Below the pieces are notes generated by a model. The model was not told the DNA's origin, searched no databases, and was given only the letters and a program-made list of their open reading frames with translations. Made by a program: the position numbers and the translations under genes. From contig JAGUYX010000282.1 of assembly GCA_020061145.1 (NCBI GenBank), forward strand, positions 1 to 40,794: DNA of 40,794 nucleotides, given 5' to 3'. This document shows, in pieces, positions 1 to 40,794 of this stretch (the stretch's first letter is position 1; the number at the start of each line of letters is the position of its first letter). This DNA is from Anaerolineales bacterium (GTDB lineage Bacteria; Chloroflexota; Anaerolineae; Anaerolineales; DRKV01).

Positions 1-158
1 ACCCGCGGTTCAAGCAGGTAAAAACGAGTAAACACCCCCGCCAGCAAGATCAGGCTGAAGACAATCGCCTCCCAGCGAATGGAAAAGGATTGCAGTACTG
101 GCATTTCGTGCCATTTCCGCGAGATTTCAGGTGGTATGGCTTGCCGGGTTGTTTGCAT
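1..158 (-). CDS. Membrane glycosyltransferase, Agl23/PMT-like (3' part outside window)
   Basis: Only the first 52 codons lie in the window; the gene continues past base 1. The start ATG (complement of 156-158) overlaps the stop codon of the upstream gene by one base (TAATG), so the two are probably translationally coupled. After a soluble N-tail of about 28 residues comes a hydrophobic helix whose motif (WEAIVFSLILL, then TRFYLLEPRV) closely matches the first membrane helix of the neighbouring glycosyltransferase (WEVVIFALLVM, then SRFYDLGVRV). It is therefore probably a paralogue of that gene, a polytopic enzyme using a lipid-linked sugar donor. The catalytic loop and any C-terminal domain are not visible, so function is inferred only from this similarity and position. 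Confidence 0.7.
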   Translation of the reverse strand, partial: MQTTRQAIPPEISRKWHEMPVLQSFSIRWEAIVFSLILLAGVFTRFYLLEPR

Positions 159-3100
159 TAGGGCACCTGGAAATATTTGATCTGATGAGATCCTGGATCG
201 CTTACCCAAACACCTTTTTCACCGGTGGCAGCGATACCAGCAGGTAGTGAAAACTGGTTTGCCTCACTCCCAAACTCTCCCCAGGTCTGAATGAATTCTC
301 CCTCGAGGGTAAATTGTAGTACACGGAAACCTTCCGGATCGGTAAGATACACATATCCACCGTCAGAAACGGCAATATAGGGTTTGTTGTCCAGAGATTG
401 TCCATACCAGCCATCGATCGGCCAGGTGTTTTCCTGAGTAAAAATATTCTCAGCAGTTTCGACGGCAACCACCACCCGCTGGTTCCAGGTGTCGGCGATG
501 TATACACGCCCATCTGGAGCGACATCCACGCCGACCGGTTCGTTCAGGTTCAGATTGATTACACTTAATGGCTCGCCTGCATTCGTAAACATCACCACCC
601 GTTTATTACCGGTATCGCTGACAAAAACTCTCCCACGGTCATCCACGCTGATTGCGCGGGGTCCCCAGAAAGCATCGGCTGTCTCGCCCTGCCCGAAATA
701 TCCCCAACTGGTGATAAACACGCCTTCAGCAGTGAATTTTTGGATCCGATTGTTCCAGGTATCGGCAACATAAACAAAACCATCCGGCCCAACCGCCACG
801 TCCCAGGGCTCATTAAAGCTGCCGGCTACGGCCGTGCCGCTCAGGCTCGCCTCCGACCCGCTGTAACTTCCCCAGATGTGCAAAACCTCACCCGTGGGCG
901 AAAGATGCTGGATACGGTGATTGTTGGTATCGGCAATATACAGGGAACCATCCGGGGCAATCGCCAGTCCTCGGGGTCCCTGGAAGGAACCGGGATCGCT
1001 GCCCATTCCGCCAAGGACAGTTTCGGCTGCCAGGCTGATTTTTCCTCCAGCATACGGGTCTTCTGGCAGGCTGACGCTGATCGGACTGCTGCCGCGATTC
1101 CATAGCATGGCGCTGATATCTTTACGCACATACATCCGCATGGAACGTGAAGGTTGCCAGTTTGCCAGGCGCATCTCCTGGCCGGTCAACTGGCCGAATG
1201 CGGTGTAATCCCGGTTCAGCCAGATATCCCACAAAGCACTACGCATCGCCGGGTCGGTTATTGCGCCGGTCAAGCGCTCCCAGGTCAGGTCGAAATAATC
1301 CTGTCGCGGCCACCACATGCGGATATATTGGTACTGGTAATAGGAGTCTCGCAACAGCGGTTCAACCCGATCCCAGTTCCGATCGCTGGCGAAAATGATG
1401 GGGTAATCCAGCAATTCTCGCGGTGCATCCGGGCCGTATACCCGGGTGTTGGTAAAATTCCGCAAATACCAGGTCAGCGGCCAGGCAGAGCCGGGGTCAC
1501 CCTGACCATCCGAGTTGTCGAAGGCAATCCCAAGAGAGAGATCGCCATTAATGCGCTCGGAAAGCTCGGTCAGATCCTCAACCAGAATTTTGTTGGATGG
1601 CGCGGAATGTGCGTAAACCATAAATTCAGTTGCTTCGTCGTAACGAATGAAAGCCGCCTGCCAGGCAGCACGGGCAGTGAGAAGAGCCAGTATGGCAAAC
1701 CCCGTCAATAACGCCAGGCGAGCAAATTCCCCTGGGTGCCAGTGCCTTAACAGGTAAAAAAGCACGCCGCCGCTGACCAAGGTAAAGATAATATATGCCA
1801 CGATTCCAGGCATTTCCGGGGGTGCCAGAGGTATGCCAGTCGCCAGGCGTAAAACCAGGTCGAAAGTAGCTCGCAGGCTTCCGGTGAATAAGAATACCAG
1901 TAACAACACCCACAATCCGTTTTGCCGGAATAATCGTTTCCATTGGACGCTTTCGATCAATTGTCCCAGTCCCCAACCTGCCAACAGAATCAATGGCAGA
2001 GTGATATGCACCGTCAGCCAGGGCATTTTTTCACCGGCAATCGTATAGGCGGCCAGGCTGGTTACCGCCCAAAACCCAAAGAGGGCCAGAGCTGGTGCCT
2101 TCTGTGAACGGGTATGAGGGTTAAATGCGTGGTGCTCCGCCTGTTGCATTTGTTGCTCAACTCTATCCCCGGTGTCCTGACCATCCGGAATACTTTCTAG
2201 GGTCTCCGGATTTACCTTTACCAAGGGCATATTGCCTTCTACCGCAGGGATCTCTGCAGGCTCCCTGACTGGCAAACTGAAGAGACGACGAAAGCTAACA
2301 ATTCCGGCTGTCAGGATTGCGCCTAACAAGGGTAAATACTCGTATAAAGGCACCTGCACGAGTAAATAATAGTACCAGGGTTGAGAGCCGCGCTCGACGG
2401 CCTGTTGATCCAGCCAGTAGCCTAACGAGCCAATCAGCCCGGTAAAGAAGCCAGCACCGTACGAAAACAGGGTGGTGTAAAACAAGGTGTAAATACCGTA
2501 AAACACCGCCATGGTTGTCAGAAAAACACGCCAGTTCCACCAGATTCCCAGCCCAATATTGATTATGACAATAGGGATTAACACCGCTGCCGTACGCAGC
2601 ATCCCTTCGGTGCTATAGTCCAATGGGTTCCAACCCAGGTATTTCACCGGAATTGGGGTAAGCTGGGGCAACACTATCAAACCCAACAACATCGCCAGAT
2701 GATAAGCGCGTTCCTGGCGGATGACCGGCAAACCCAAGCCACGTATAGCGCAGAAGATTGCCAGACCAATACTCAAAATGCCGAGAATTTCTGGAAACAG
2801 GGTGAAGAAAGATGGCAGCAGGCTGGCTTCAGCCTCCCCCTGCCTGGCGTTGATCACGCTTGCCAGCAATACCACCCCCAGCATAATCATCCCGCTCAAG
2901 ATCGCCAGTAAAAACGGACGGTAATAGGCTGGTTTGCGCCAGTTCAGACTGGTAACGCGCTGCACCAGGAGCAGAGTCAGGAAGAATAGCGCCTGGGCGG
3001 TATAGATGAAAGCAGTTTCTTTGGCGGTGAAATGGAATGCAGTGGCGGCCGCCAGGTATACCAGGTACCGGGTTTCGCCCTTTTCCAGATAGCGTAGAAT

Positions 3101-3589
3101 CGCCCACAGCGCAATCAGCCCAAACAGCACCACCAGGGACTCATTGCGCGCATAACGCCCGTAATAAAGCATAAAAGGCGAAATGATCATCAGGAAAGTG
3201 GTTACCAGGGTGCCCGTTTTCCCCAGGTAAGGGCGGAATTTCCATAAAAAAATGATGCCCAGAACGCTTGCCAGGGCATGAGGAATTCGCCCGGCCAGAT
3301 CATTATCCCCAAACAATGTATAACTGAGCGCCATAAGGTGAAATTGTAGGGGACCATGGGTCAGGGGGGTATGCGTATAGCCGTTGCCACGATAAAACTG
3401 CCAGGAAAAATAGGTGTGCTGGGTTTCATCGTGACTCATCACCCGGACGCCTAAATCGTAAAAACGCGAGAAAATAGCCAGCATCACCAGAAGAGCAAAG
3501 ATCACCACTTCCCAGGTAAGGTGCTTTTCTAGATATTGGCGAAAAATTAATTTGGGAGGCTCGTTGTTCAGTGGGGGGTTGAGACTCAT
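158..3589 (-). CDS. Polytopic glycosyltransferase (Agl23/TIGR03663-like) fused to an NHL beta-propeller
   Basis: A protein of about 1143 residues with two parts. The N-terminal ~600 residues are a polytopic membrane domain of the PMT/GT39-like superfamily, with an SHDE acidic motif just after the first helix and a YYGRYARNES motif, as in proteins annotated TIGR03663 (flippase-associated Agl23). A soluble region follows. The last ~290 residues are five or six NHL repeats (YIADTNNHRIQ, YVADTWNNRIQ, VSDTGNKRV, YIADTWNQRV), expected to form an extracytoplasmic six-bladed propeller. Family knowledge suggests sugar transfer from a polyprenyl carrier onto a protein or glycan; the acceptor is unknown. 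The start is uncertain: GTG at 3652 and ATG at 3613 are in frame, but ATG 3589 gives an N-tail of the same length as the downstream paralogue. No site has a good Shine-Dalgarno. The stop overlaps the next gene. Confidence 0.85.
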   Translation of the reverse strand: MSLNPPLNNEPPKLIFRQYLEKHLTWEVVIFALLVMLAIFSRFYDLGVRVMSHDETQHTYFSWQFYRGNGYTHTPLTHGPLQFHLMALSYTLFGDNDLAGRIPHALASVLGIIFLWKFRPYLGKTGTLVTTFLMIISPFMLYYGRYARNESLVVLFGLIALWAILRYLEKGETRYLVYLAAATAFHFTAKETAFIYTAQALFFLTLLLVQRVTSLNWRKPAYYRPFLLAILSGMIMLGVVLLASVINARQGEAEASLLPSFFTLFPEILGILSIGLAIFCAIRGLGLPVIRQERAYHLAMLLGLIVLPQLTPIPVKYLGWNPLDYSTEGMLRTAAVLIPIVIINIGLGIWWNWRVFLTTMAVFYGIYTLFYTTLFSYGAGFFTGLIGSLGYWLDQQAVERGSQPWYYYLLVQVPLYEYLPLLGAILTAGIVSFRRLFSLPVREPAEIPAVEGNMPLVKVNPETLESIPDGQDTGDRVEQQMQQAEHHAFNPHTRSQKAPALALFGFWAVTSLAAYTIAGEKMPWLTVHITLPLILLAGWGLGQLIESVQWKRLFRQNGLWVLLLVFLFTGSLRATFDLVLRLATGIPLAPPEMPGIVAYIIFTLVSGGVLFYLLRHWHPGEFARLALLTGFAILALLTARAAWQAAFIRYDEATEFMVYAHSAPSNKILVEDLTELSERINGDLSLGIAFDNSDGQGDPGSAWPLTWYLRNFTNTRVYGPDAPRELLDYPIIFASDRNWDRVEPLLRDSYYQYQYIRMWWPRQDYFDLTWERLTGAITDPAMRSALWDIWLNRDYTAFGQLTGQEMRLANWQPSRSMRMYVRKDISAMLWNRGSSPISVSLPEDPYAGGKISLAAETVLGGMGSDPGSFQGPRGLAIAPDGSLYIADTNNHRIQHLSPTGEVLHIWGSYSGSEASLSGTAVAGSFNEPWDVAVGPDGFVYVADTWNNRIQKFTAEGVFITSWGYFGQGETADAFWGPRAISVDDRGRVFVSDTGNKRVVMFTNAGEPLSVINLNLNEPVGVDVAPDGRVYIADTWNQRVVVAVETAENIFTQENTWPIDGWYGQSLDNKPYIAVSDGGYVYLTDPEGFRVLQFTLEGEFIQTWGEFGSEANQFSLPAGIAATGEKGVWVSDPGSHQIKYFQVP

Positions 3590-3951
3590 AGTATTTTCGC
3601 GGGACTCATCCATCTGAGTATGCTTTACCGCTGGGTTAACACGAAATATCACTAAGAATCAAAGCTGTACCTTTGGTTAGCATGAATTATATTCAGTCTG
3701 CCAAGCACAGCCTGCCCAATTCTACTATACTGTTTTGTGAATGCCGGGGATTCGAGGGAGTCTATGAGGTGGTTGAGGTAACTCAGAATCGACGGATAAA
3801 AATCGGTGTAGCAGACAGCCAGATTCCTCCTCCTGATCGATGTGGTAATTTTCGTGTTTTAAACGATCGCTTTGCTTACCTGACGCCAGGTAATGCCTTT
3901 TCGTACCCTCAGTTTGTATTCCTTGACTATTTGCTTTCTCCCTTAAGGAGA
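3590..3951. other. Intergenic stretch with no gene recognised
   Basis: This lies between the end of rluB and the start of the glycosyltransferase, both on the minus strand. I found no convincing promoter or rho-independent terminator. A short inverted repeat (TCTCC/GGAGA) follows the rluB stop but has no T-run. A plus-strand frame at 3673-3993 starts with TTG, has no ribosome-binding site and runs into rluB antisense, so I do not call it. Confidence 0.5.
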
Positions 3952-5976: not shown

Positions 5977-7641
5977 ATGAGATTATACCATCCTGCTTCG
6001 TCGCACCCGGATGCTCCATCTATCTCCATGTTTACCCATGGGTTCAATTTGATTCTTCCCGGTTCGCGTTTATTCTTCCTGCTTTTCTCGATGGCGATAT
6101 TGCTAATAGCCTGCGCGCCACAAAAAGCGCCACAGGTAGAAATTCAGGTGAAGATAGAGACAGCCGGGGAGAGTTATTCGGTTACCCTGCCGTTGGGGAG
6201 TACCGTAGAACAGGCGATTTTAGCCAGCGATCTGGAACTGGGGGATCTTGATCGAACAGATCCCCCTTTATACACCGTGTTGACCGATGGTTCTACCGTG
6301 CAAGTGATCCGTGTAGAAGAAGAATTCGAAATCGAAGAGGTGATTATCCCCTACGAATCGCGAACCATCCGCAATGAAGCCCTGACCGAAGGTGAAAGAC
6401 GCCTGGTCCAGGCAGGTGTAAACGGCATCCAGGAAATCACTTACCGCAGAGTTTATGAAGATAACCAGGAAATCTCACGAAATATTGTCAAATCGGTCAT
6501 TCTCCAGGAGGCTGTGCCTGAAATCGTGATGATTGGCTCTCAGAGCCCGTTTGCGCCCGTCGAATTTCCGGGAAGCATCGTTTACCTGGCCGGTGGAAAT
6601 GCGTGGGTGCTGTCTGGTGAGAGTGGTGAACGTACCCCATTAATTACCAGTGGAGACCTGGATGGGCGTGTTTTTTCGCTTTCGCCCGATGGAGAGTGGC
6701 TTTTATTCACGCGCCGCGGGGAAGAAGACACCATCAACACCCTGTGGGTCACCCAGTTGAATGAACCCTACCTTGAGGTCGATCTGAACGTGGAAAATGT
6801 TGTGCATTTTGCAGATTGGATCCCGGATGCGCAACTTCAGGTCGCTTATTCCACGGTTGAACCCCGGGAAATTGCCCCGGGTTGGCAGGCCAATAATGAC
6901 TTGTATCGGATCAGCTTCAGCTCTACCGGTTGGGTATCGGATCCTGAGCTGGTTGTCGATGCCAATGCCGGCGGTGTGTATGGCTGGTGGGGCACGACCT
7001 ATGCCTATTCCGTGAATGGATCTCGACTGGCCTTTGCCCGACCGGATGGTGTCGGCCTGGTCGATTTAGAAACCGGAGAGCTACAAAAAATCCATGACGC
7101 CATTCCCTTGCAGACGTTTGGGGATTGGGCCTGGGTGCCGGGGGTAAGCTGGTCTCCTGATGAAAGTGTTTTGTTTTCCGTCGACCATATACCCCAAACC
7201 GGCAATGGGAATCCCGAGACTTCCCAGGTATTTGACGTGCTGGCGATCCCCCTTGAACTCCAAACCGCCATTCATCTTGTTTCACAATCAGGCATGTTCG
7301 CTTACCCGGTTCCTTCGCCTTTTATGCTCGGTGAAACCGAACCGGGAGCCTATCAAATAGCCTATTTACAGGCGATTTTTCCCATACAATCGGAGACCAG
7401 CCAGTACCTGTTGATGGTGATGGATCGCGATGGTTCAAACCGCCGCCAGTTATTTCCGGAAACAGGCGCCATCGGTCTGGAACCACAGAAACTGGTCTGG
7501 GCGCCTTCGTCAACGGATGGGGAGTTGGAATATCATCTGGCTTTTCTTTATCAGGGCAATTTGTGGCTGTTGAACACTCTCACCGGGGATGCTCGCCAGC
7601 TTACCGGTGATGGTTTGATCAGCCGCATTGATTGGAAATAG
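5977..7641 (+). CDS. Lipoprotein with G5 domain and TolB-like beta-propeller
   Basis: 554 residues. A long N-region precedes a hydrophobic helix ending in ILLIAC, with the lipidated Cys at residue 46; the true start could be a later Met (residue 18 or 39), because no Shine-Dalgarno marks ATG 5977. After the Cys comes a ubiquitin-like DUF348-type strand pattern (residues 50-105), then a G5 domain at about 105-185 (EVIIPYESRTIRNEALTEG, then EITYRRVYEDNQEISR). The remainder is a TolB/WD40-like propeller with repeats such as FSLSPDGEWLLFTRRG, NGSRLAFARPDGVGLVD and MVMDRDGSNRRQLF. G5 domains are known to bind wall glycans and the propeller probably mediates contacts outside the membrane; no enzymatic residues were recognised. 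It sits 12 nt after another lipoprotein. Confidence 0.8.
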   Translation: MRLYHPASSHPDAPSISMFTHGFNLILPGSRLFFLLFSMAILLIACAPQKAPQVEIQVKIETAGESYSVTLPLGSTVEQAILASDLELGDLDRTDPPLYTVLTDGSTVQVIRVEEEFEIEEVIIPYESRTIRNEALTEGERRLVQAGVNGIQEITYRRVYEDNQEISRNIVKSVILQEAVPEIVMIGSQSPFAPVEFPGSIVYLAGGNAWVLSGESGERTPLITSGDLDGRVFSLSPDGEWLLFTRRGEEDTINTLWVTQLNEPYLEVDLNVENVVHFADWIPDAQLQVAYSTVEPREIAPGWQANNDLYRISFSSTGWVSDPELVVDANAGGVYGWWGTTYAYSVNGSRLAFARPDGVGLVDLETGELQKIHDAIPLQTFGDWAWVPGVSWSPDESVLFSVDHIPQTGNGNPETSQVFDVLAIPLELQTAIHLVSQSGMFAYPVPSPFMLGETEPGAYQIAYLQAIFPIQSETSQYLLMVMDRDGSNRRQLFPETGAIGLEPQKLVWAPSSTDGELEYHLAFLYQGNLWLLNTLTGDARQLTGDGLISRIDWK

Positions 7642-14640: not shown

Positions 14641-14712
14641 TTTTGTAAATAACATCCGGTTTTTTAGTTTTGCTCTGTTAAAGTCTACGCAAAATAAAAG
14701 TGAGGGTTGCAA

Positions 14713-16134
14713 ATGAACACACAGAGTATTCAAAATTTGGTTCAGGTGGTTAATGGCGCGGTAAAGTTCGAAAATGGCAGGCTAAAAGTCACCTCAGCCT
14801 CTCGATTGAGGGAACAAATCTATCAATGGGTTGAAATCGCAGCTCTGGGCAGTGGGCAGGAGCAGGCAACTGCTCGTTATCTGACCCGCCTGGCTGCCCT
14901 GGAATTGCAGATTTTCCCGGCTTCCATACATGACCTGTATCTGGCGCGAGGCAAGGAACAAATTCGTCCTACCTTTACCACGCCAGCCATGAATTTACGC
15001 GCCTTACCCTTTTTGGCTGCGCGGGCTGTGTTTCGGGTAGCGGATCGCCTTCAAGCAGGGGCGTTTATCTTCGAAATTGCTCGTTCGGAAATGGGGTATA
15101 CCGATCAAAAACCTTCTGAGTATGCCACCCATGTTCTTGCCGCGGCGATTGCAGAGGGATATCAAGGCCCGGTGTTTATCCAGGGAGATCATTTTCAGGT
15201 CTCAGCAAAACGTTATACTACCGATCCCGAAGCGGAATTGCAGGCTGTTAAAGAATTAACCGTTGAAGCGATTGAAGCAGGTTTCTTCAATATTGATATA
15301 GACACATCCACACTGGTGGACTTGAGTAAGCCCACCGTTCCCGAACAACAGGCTGTAAACGCCAGCCTCACTGCCATGTTTACTGCTTTGATCCGTCAGC
15401 GCCAGCCTGATGGCATTACTATATCCGTCGGTGGTGAGATTGGTGAGGTCGGTGGGACGAACTCCACTGAAGAAGAATTGCGGGCATATATTGACAGCTA
15501 TCAACACGAACTGGCACGCCAATCACCGGGAGCCGTTGGTTTGAGCAAAATCAGCATCCAGACGGGCACCTCCCACGGAGGGGTTGTCCTGCCGGATGGG
15601 TCGATTGCCCGGGTATCGGTGGACTTTGAGACCCTGCTGCGCCTTAGCCGGATTGCTCGCCAGGAATATGGTATGGGTGGAGCCGTGCAACATGGCGCCT
15701 CCACCTTGCCAGAATCAGCGTTTAACAAGTTTGTGGAATCCGAAGCTATCGAAGTTCACCTGGCAACGAACTTCCAGAATATTTTATACAATCACCTTCC
15801 GGTGGATTTACGCGATGAGATGTACGCATATCTGGATCGAAATCACAGTCATGAGCGGAAAGCAGATCAGACAGATGAGCAGTTTTATTACAAAACTCGA
15901 AAGCAAGCCCTGGGACCATTTAAACGCGAATTGATGCATATGCCTGAGCAGGTACTGGATAGCATTGCTTCTGCCTGGGAAAAGCAATTTATTGGATTGT
16001 TCGAGCGTCTGGGGGTTGCCGATACTCGCCGTTATATCGACGAATTCATTTTACCGGTCCATGTACAGCCAAAACTGTCAAACTACCTGGACTCAGGAGA
16101 AACAACTGAGGAAGTAAGTGATCTGGCAGATTAA
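14713..16134 (+). CDS. Class II (zinc) fructose/tagatose-bisphosphate aldolase-like protein, long form
   Basis: 473 residues, starting at ATG 14713 behind GTGAGGG. The class II ketose-bisphosphate aldolase barrel is recognisable from VFIQGDHFQ (metal-binding His after the Asp), TISVGGEIGEVGG, IQTGTSHGG and VQHGASTLPESAF. These supply the zinc ligands and phosphate-binding loops that cleave or form C6 ketose bisphosphates. At 473 residues it is much longer than ordinary FbaA/GatY proteins (about 285-360), with an extra N-terminal helical region (1-95) and a C-terminal extension (after ~380) rich in Lys, Glu and Tyr. Substrate is not determined: fructose-1,6- or tagatose-1,6-bisphosphate, or another phosphorylated sugar. 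It has its own promoter. Confidence 0.8.
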   Translation: MNTQSIQNLVQVVNGAVKFENGRLKVTSASRLREQIYQWVEIAALGSGQEQATARYLTRLAALELQIFPASIHDLYLARGKEQIRPTFTTPAMNLRALPFLAARAVFRVADRLQAGAFIFEIARSEMGYTDQKPSEYATHVLAAAIAEGYQGPVFIQGDHFQVSAKRYTTDPEAELQAVKELTVEAIEAGFFNIDIDTSTLVDLSKPTVPEQQAVNASLTAMFTALIRQRQPDGITISVGGEIGEVGGTNSTEEELRAYIDSYQHELARQSPGAVGLSKISIQTGTSHGGVVLPDGSIARVSVDFETLLRLSRIARQEYGMGGAVQHGASTLPESAFNKFVESEAIEVHLATNFQNILYNHLPVDLRDEMYAYLDRNHSHERKADQTDEQFYYKTRKQALGPFKRELMHMPEQVLDSIASAWEKQFIGLFERLGVADTRRYIDEFILPVHVQPKLSNYLDSGETTEEVSDLAD

Positions 16135-39890: not shown

Positions 39891-39927
39891 ATTGAGTCGC
39901 CAAACCTGGCAAAATGAAATTCTCCTG

Positions 39928-39984
39928 ACAGGTCTGGAAGTGCAGGTTTTTACGTACCAGTTATAATGGCAACTCCAGACCTGT
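39928..39984 (+). terminator. Long-loop inverted repeat after glmS, possible terminator
   Basis: ACAGGTCTGGA (39928-39938) and TCCAGACCTGT (39974-39984), a perfect 11-bp stem with a 35-nt loop, followed by TTTGTCC. It could end glmS transcription. The loop holds a TATAAT (39962-39967), so the same repeat may instead bracket the promoter of the next gene. Confidence 0.5.
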
Positions 39985-40015
39985 TTTGTCCTGTATATTC
40001 AGGAGGTAAGACCAG

Positions 40016-40794
40016 GTGTTTTCCCCCGCCGGGATATCGCGCCGGATCCGCAAGCTGCTGTTGCTCCTGACATTCTGTGCCGTCGGTTTATCGCCTGCTT
40101 TCTCCGTCTATGCCAGAGACGAAAACCCCTGGCTGAGTACGGATTACTCACTCGCCCAGGATGGGTTCTTCTCCACGCCCGTCGCGGTAGCTTTCATGCC
40201 GTTGGAAGACGAAGAATTTATCCTGCGCCGCCAGTACCCGCAGAAATACTCCGCCCCCATTCTTTTGCCAGACCTGCGTATCCTGCCGCCCAGCGACCTG
40301 CGCCTGGTGCTGGAAACCCGTCGCGGGCGAAAATTCCTCTACTTCAGCACGACTTTTTGGAATCGCGGGCCGGGACACCTGGAATTGCAAGGTATTCGCG
40401 ACCCTGAAGCAGAGACGATTGAAGTCCGCCAGTATGTTTATCGTGCGGATGGCAGCCAGGTGGAGCGAGAAGCCGGTCTGTTTGCTTTTCACCCGGAACA
40501 CGGGCACTGGCATTGGGATGGATTCGGTCGTTACCAGGTCTGGTCTGTGGACGCGCATAACCAGTTAGACGTGGTGGTCGCCGCCAATCAAAAAGTGGGA
40601 TTCTGCCTGCGCGATATTCACCGGCATCCGCAAAAACAATTATCCGACTCGCCCGAGCTGGATTTCCATGTCCCGGTACGCCCGCAATACGATACCTGTT
40701 ACTGGGAACGACAGGGATTATCCAGCGGCTGGACGGATTATTACCGTTCTAATCTGCCCGGTCAGTATGTGGAAATCTCTCACCTGGAGGATGG
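40016..40794 (+). CDS. Secreted lysyl-oxidase-like copper amine oxidase (3' end outside window)
   Basis: 259 codons are visible. GTG start at 40016 with AGGAGG (40001-40006) nine bases upstream. A Sec signal peptide (RRIRKLLLLLTFCAVGLSPA, then FSVYA, cleavage near residue 33) precedes a domain like the lysyl oxidase family (PF01186). The copper motif HPEHGHWHW has His at 159, 162, 164 and 166 (vertebrate LOX: HSCHQHYH). NQKVGFCLRD matches the LOX segment with the lysine of the lysine-tyrosylquinone cofactor (Lys 193 here), and RQGLSSGWTDYYRSNLPGQY matches the segment with the cofactor tyrosine (Tyr 243). Family chemistry is oxidative deamination of peptidyl lysine or amines with release of H2O2. 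The bacterial substrate is unknown. The frame is still open at the window edge. Confidence 0.85.
   Translation, partial: MFSPAGISRRIRKLLLLLTFCAVGLSPAFSVYARDENPWLSTDYSLAQDGFFSTPVAVAFMPLEDEEFILRRQYPQKYSAPILLPDLRILPPSDLRLVLETRRGRKFLYFSTTFWNRGPGHLELQGIRDPEAETIEVRQYVYRADGSQVEREAGLFAFHPEHGHWHWDGFGRYQVWSVDAHNQLDVVVAANQKVGFCLRDIHRHPQKQLSDSPELDFHVPVRPQYDTCYWERQGLSSGWTDYYRSNLPGQYVEISHLED

Follow-up and report, generated by a model that had tools for sequence, protein, structure and literature searches.

Lysyl oxidases (LOX) are a family of enzymes that cross-link collagen in animals. An open reading frame at the end of a contig from an Anaerolineales bacterium resembles this family, which raises the questions of whether the gene belongs to it, whether its product keeps the residues for catalysis, and what such an enzyme would act on outside a bacterial cell.

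The gene and its position on the contig

The window, meaning the whole stretch of DNA analyzed here, is one entire contig (C10, 40794 bases), and its 3' end is the end of the contig. The assembly holding it comprises 3.15 Mb in 325 contigs and is 92% complete. The reading frame (40016..40792, forward strand) begins with GTG at 40016 and is open at its 3' end at the last base of the contig. The LOX gene is therefore cut by the contig end and is present here without a complete C-terminus. A comparison with L003, a complete relative of 285 aa, suggests that the window protein lacks some 50-55 residues at its C-terminus. In their C-terminal part, complete relatives show a G-x-Y...E...N segment. 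The missing 3' end was not found on any other contig of the assembly in a family-profile search, and a genome-wide search of the same assembly gave no second LOX copy. The features of the locus are collected in Table 1.

Table 1. Features of the LOX locus and its surroundings (positions in the window)
Feature	Position	Strand	Basis or remark
mreB, mreC, PBP2, rodA	24.8-32.5 kb	opposite to LOX	domain search; 7-15 kb away
Amino-acid ABC transporter, before the glmS-like gene	33.0-37.5 kb		domain search
glmS-like gene (SIS + glutamine amidotransferase domains), next upstream of LOX	38.0-39.9 kb		domain search
Hairpin between glmS-like and LOX genes, then short T run	39927..39985	+	folding: 12-pair outer stem, -26.2 kcal/mol, z -3.25
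Ribosome-binding site AGGAGG, 9 bases 5' of GTG	40001..40006	+	sequence
LOX-like gene, 5' part, 259 codons	40016..40794	+	sequence, ORF call, PF01186, alignment
Signal peptide-type N-terminus, residues 1-34, no lipobox	40016..40117	+	composition, hydropathy; cleavage site by eye
Copper-site motif H159-P-E-H162-G-H164-W-H166	40490..40513	+	alignment; profile match to 5ZE3
Lys193 in NQKVGFC, lysine tyrosylquinone (LTQ) lysine position (LOX K320, LOXL2 K653)	40592..40594	+	alignment, 5ZE3 match
Tyr243 in QGLSSGWTDYY, LTQ tyrosine position (LOX Y355, LOXL2 Y689)	40742..40744	+	alignment, 5ZE3 match

The intergenic hairpin was missed by a consensus terminator scan; its loop exceeds the length that the scan permits. 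Its form suggests a terminator, and the LOX gene thus probably has its own transcription. The same intergenic region yielded no sigma-70-like promoter.

Membership of the lysyl oxidase family

Every sequence test that was run assigns the window gene to the lysyl oxidase family. A hit to PF01186, as anticipated in the preliminary description, was obtained with the truncated protein at 21.2 bits (cut-off 20.4, E 2.5e-4) and is its sole Pfam match. The match spans only positions 77-162 of the 204 in the profile, and a low score is expected from the truncation and divergence of the protein. The complete relative L003 scores 43.4 bits (E 3.9e-11). No NCBIfam family matched the window LOX protein. 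In a contig search, a profile of relatives matched the window gene at 1.1e-61, a value that expresses consistency rather than independent proof, since this profile contains the window gene itself. When a profile of 11 relatives was compared with all PDB sequences, human LOXL2 (5ZE3) was the sole significant match (E 5.9e-18), with WIWHDCHRHYH falling on HxxHxHxH, HKASFC on K193VGFC and GCWDMY on GWTDYY.

Matches to the window protein are present in 8 of 61 genomes, its own genome counted, and one of these is weak and interrupted by stops. The six good relatives come from the same order and are 37-44% identical, with E-values down to 1.6e-53. The outcome of contig scans depended on the query, as a three-sequence alignment retrieved 20 loci and the single window protein none. 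Across the phylum, a PF01186 search found LOX in 16 of 400 genomes, indicating that the gene is sporadic. In the tree, the window protein and L003 form a pair (support 99/97) inside prokaryotic LOX; the nearest named relative, from the Anaerolineales MAG JABWBV010000004.1, is paired with the window protein there. The placement of the gene in the LOX family, already made in the preliminary description, is thus supported by the profile, the alignment, the structure model of a relative (described below) and the tree.

Copper and cofactor residues

The copper and LTQ residues named earlier (H162, H164, H166, K193 and Y243) are correctly numbered and align with the copper and LTQ segments of 5ZE3. 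The three histidines correspond in the alignment to LOXL2 His626, His628 and His630, and H159 corresponds to LOXL2 His623 and LOX His289. In an alignment of 28 Chloroflexota sequences, K193, C197, C228 and Q250 are invariant, while H162, H164, H166, D241 and Y243 are found in 27 of the 28. The sole exception is L030 (L030:1414-2490, genome G444), in which the three copper histidines and the LTQ tyrosine are gone and the lysine is kept. The joint absence of all three histidines and the tyrosine is expected if these residues act together. This protein is likely an inactive LOX paralogue, judging from its sequence; its genome also has the residue-intact LOX copies L018 and L026.

Two further histidines of the human enzyme, His652 and His637 of LOXL2, are without a counterpart in the window protein, which has Q192 and R172 instead. 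In LOXL2, the His652Q substitution lowers LTQ to below 50% (PMC9694262). In the precursor structure of human LOXL2 (5ZE3), the cofactor residues Lys653 and Tyr689 are 16.6 A apart (PMC9694262). A large distance between Lys193 and Tyr243 in a model, which the preliminary description took as a refutation, is therefore no argument against LOX membership.

The first histidine of the copper region (human H289) has been described as absent from bacteria by Grau-Bove et al. 2015 (PMC4448552). In contrast, the window protein has H159 at this position with identical spacing. Of the 46 tree proteins, 34 have the residue: the human one, the window protein and 32 of the 44 remaining prokaryotic sequences, although part of this set was retrieved with a pattern containing the first histidine and is biased for it. 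Its carriers in the tree belong to the Chloroflexota, Verrucomicrobiota, Acidobacteriota, Actinomycetota, Myxococcota, Bacteroidota and Thaumarchaeota. Of the Chloroflexota loci selected by PF01186 without the pattern (L010-L030), 20 retain the copper motif, and the first histidine is found in 8 of these. The reported absence of this residue from bacteria is therefore not general. In LOXL2, the His623Q substitution leaves LTQ at under half of normal (PMC9694262).

Export and structure

The window LOX protein is predicted to be secreted, as supported by the composition and hydropathy of its N-terminus. The signal peptide proposed in the preliminary description is seen as a signal-type segment at residues ~8-34, with RRIRK, a hydrophobic run and a putative cleavage site placed by eye at SVYA|RDE; no other 15-mer of the protein is as hydrophobic as residues 14-28. 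Beyond residues 1-34, a beta-rich domain follows. The confidence of the structure model is low up to about residue 60, and the residues between the signal peptide and this point could, as a guess, be a linker or a propeptide. The N-terminal segment of HTU-LOX, the lysyl oxidase of the archaeon Haloterrigena turkmenica, is known to inhibit that enzyme (PMC6452851).

Most of the domain is modeled with confidence in the window protein: the block means for residues 81-200 and for residues 221-259 exceed 90. A fold search with this truncated model gave no significant match and did not retrieve 5ZE3, presumably owing to the absence of the last strands. The AlphaFold2 model of L003, which is complete and 42% identical to the window protein, has a pLDDT of 86 and matched 5ZE3 at E 3.8e-10 with a probability of 1.00.

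Genomic neighborhood and background

The neighbors of the gene had been described as envelope genes, and this holds in part: the glmS-like gene adjoins the LOX gene and the mreB-mreC-PBP2-rodA cluster lies further off, but an amino-acid ABC transporter is also among the neighbors. None of the gene types adjacent to LOX in the window recurs beside LOX in the loci examined from the nearest relatives. A conserved upstream gene was considered through the closest relative, L033, whose ~610-aa upstream neighbor is of the prolyl oligopeptidase type and is unrelated to the glmS of the window. In L034 and L035, the LOX neighbors are DUF1501 and endonuclease/phosphatase genes. A link with the envelope is thus possible through the export of the protein and the wall-binding domains of other family members only.

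Elsewhere in the window, a 1164-aa protein (158-3652, reverse strand) combines a mannosyltransferase-type membrane domain (PF13231) with NHL repeats, a protein of 554 aa (5977-7641, forward strand) that has one G5 domain is possibly a surface protein, and a 475-aa protein (14707-16134, forward strand) is a divergent class II aldolase type that also weakly resembles GatZ/KbaZ.

The genome has a heme-copper oxidase (COX1, three matches) and an SCO1-type copper protein, indicating a capacity to respire O2 and to handle copper. A tie between LOX and aerobic life in general was considered and rejected, as COX1 occurs in 14 of 16 LOX-bearing genomes versus 335 of 400 overall, which is no enrichment.

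Lysyl oxidases in other Chloroflexota

Multiple LOX proteins of the phylum carry additional domains. Fusions of a metallo-beta-lactamase fold (PF13483) with LOX are seen in three Chloroflexota proteins (L034:6963-8630, L035:7023-8690 and L036:6969-8663). LOX is also joined to cell wall-binding repeats (CW_binding_2, E 1.1e-53; L020:505-2205, G162), to bacterial SH3 domains (L011:1114-3381, G304), to a glucose/sorbosone dehydrogenase domain (L022:1408-3273, G145) and to a bacterial Ig domain (L013:928-2649, G317). In addition, a LOX gene on a MAG contig binned as Patescibacteria (L037, JAMCZG010000014.1) groups with the Chloroflexota in the tree, and either transfer or a binning error could account for this placement.

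Proposed function and alternatives

Taken together, the window gene very probably encodes a secreted primary-amine oxidase of the lysyl oxidase family that depends on copper and LTQ. The export signal, the family and the residue positions are supported by this analysis, as is the fold of the close relative L003; from human LOX and LOXL2 and from archaeal HTU-LOX we infer that the protein binds copper, forms the cofactor and turns over substrate. By analogy with these enzymes, the signal peptide would export the protein and His162, His164 and His166 would bind Cu(II). Copper and O2 would then oxidize Tyr243 autocatalytically, and its coupling to Lys193 would give LTQ, the quinone of which would oxidize primary amines to aldehydes with release of NH3 and H2O2. 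Its activity would most likely be a broad oxidation of primary amines outside the cell, both free amines and exposed lysines, as for HTU-LOX.

What such an oxidase would be used for can be read in different ways. A mainly nutritional or competitive role, in which environmental amines, peptides or amine-bearing antibiotics are deaminated to ammonia and H2O2, is a realistic reading, if somewhat short of probable. It agrees with the oxidation of many primary amines, aminoglycosides and polymyxin by HTU-LOX (PMC6452851), but no amine-catabolic genes adjoin the LOX gene in the window.

The preliminary description had instead proposed that lysines of surface proteins are oxidized, leading to cross-links that stiffen the envelope or the biofilm matrix. 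This is compatible with the same LOX chemistry and differs in the substrate, and as the main role of the enzyme we consider it doubtful. The signal peptide fits such a role, as do the Chloroflexota proteins with CW_binding_2 and SH3 domains, which are probably located at the cell surface. However, the visible part of the window protein has no anchor or wall-binding domain, the genes adjoining it do not recur next to the LOX genes of relatives, and no collagen-family protein scored above the cut-off in the genome (best 24.4 versus 27.2 bits). Moreover, HTU-LOX accepts small amines of many kinds, and its inhibition by BAPN left the growth and osmotic sensitivity of the host unaffected (PMC6452851). 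A wider form of the idea is improbable on present grounds: a family of LTQ enzymes in the Chloroflexota, part of them anchored in the wall through cell wall-binding repeats or SH3 domains, would act on lysines in the surface proteins of these bacteria and modify or cross-link them. If true, a type of chemistry known from the animal matrix would operate in a bacterial envelope.

It is very improbable that the protein has kept the LOX fold but lost the enzyme function and now serves as a binding protein akin to CARDB-type beta domains: the L003 model weakly resembles CARDB domains (3idu, E 0.02) and the phylum has one paralogue, L030, without the active-site residues, but the window protein retains all five cofactor and copper residues, which hardly vary across the family.

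Comparison with known systems

The amine oxidase proposed here shares with human LOX and LOXL2 the HxxHxHxH copper spacing, an LTQ lysine in a similar segment (HKASFC in 5ZE3, NQKVGFC in the window), an LTQ tyrosine in a QGxxxGxxDxY segment and, in the complete relative L003, the same fold, at ~21% identity between LOXL2 and the L003 model in the structural alignment. Besides the two LOXL2 histidines that it lacks, the window protein differs in having, in the part seen, only two cysteines past the signal peptide (C197 and C228), and no scavenger-receptor or proline-rich N-terminal region.

Among prokaryotes, Grau-Bove et al. 2015 described bacterial LOX homologues in five listed groups, the Chloroflexota not among them, and almost only simple architectures (PMC4448552). 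The window protein has the same simple-architecture LOX domain with three histidines, lysine and tyrosine, and in addition the first histidine. A search of the available literature for lysyl oxidases of Chloroflexi or Anaerolineae returned no paper.

HTU-LOX is an active, BAPN-sensitive and copper-dependent amine oxidase (PMC6452851). It is likewise prokaryotic, with a LOX domain that is preceded by a hydrophobic signal sequence and a short N-terminal stretch, and has the same hyperconserved histidines, lysine and tyrosine, a comparison made by published description rather than by direct alignment (PMC6452851). It belongs to another domain of life, and its activity is known, whereas the window protein is known from sequence. 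With prokaryotic LOX known since 2015 and an archaeal LOX shown to be active in 2019, the window gene is a sound further example. The new points are modest: LOX in the Chloroflexota, fused architectures in this phylum and a first histidine that is more widespread. They bring a phylum outside the published list into an enzyme family that is known but poorly understood, and the varied architectures, with wall-binding, SH3, sugar-dehydrogenase and metallo-beta-lactamase-fold domains, offer handles on the role of LOX in prokaryotes.
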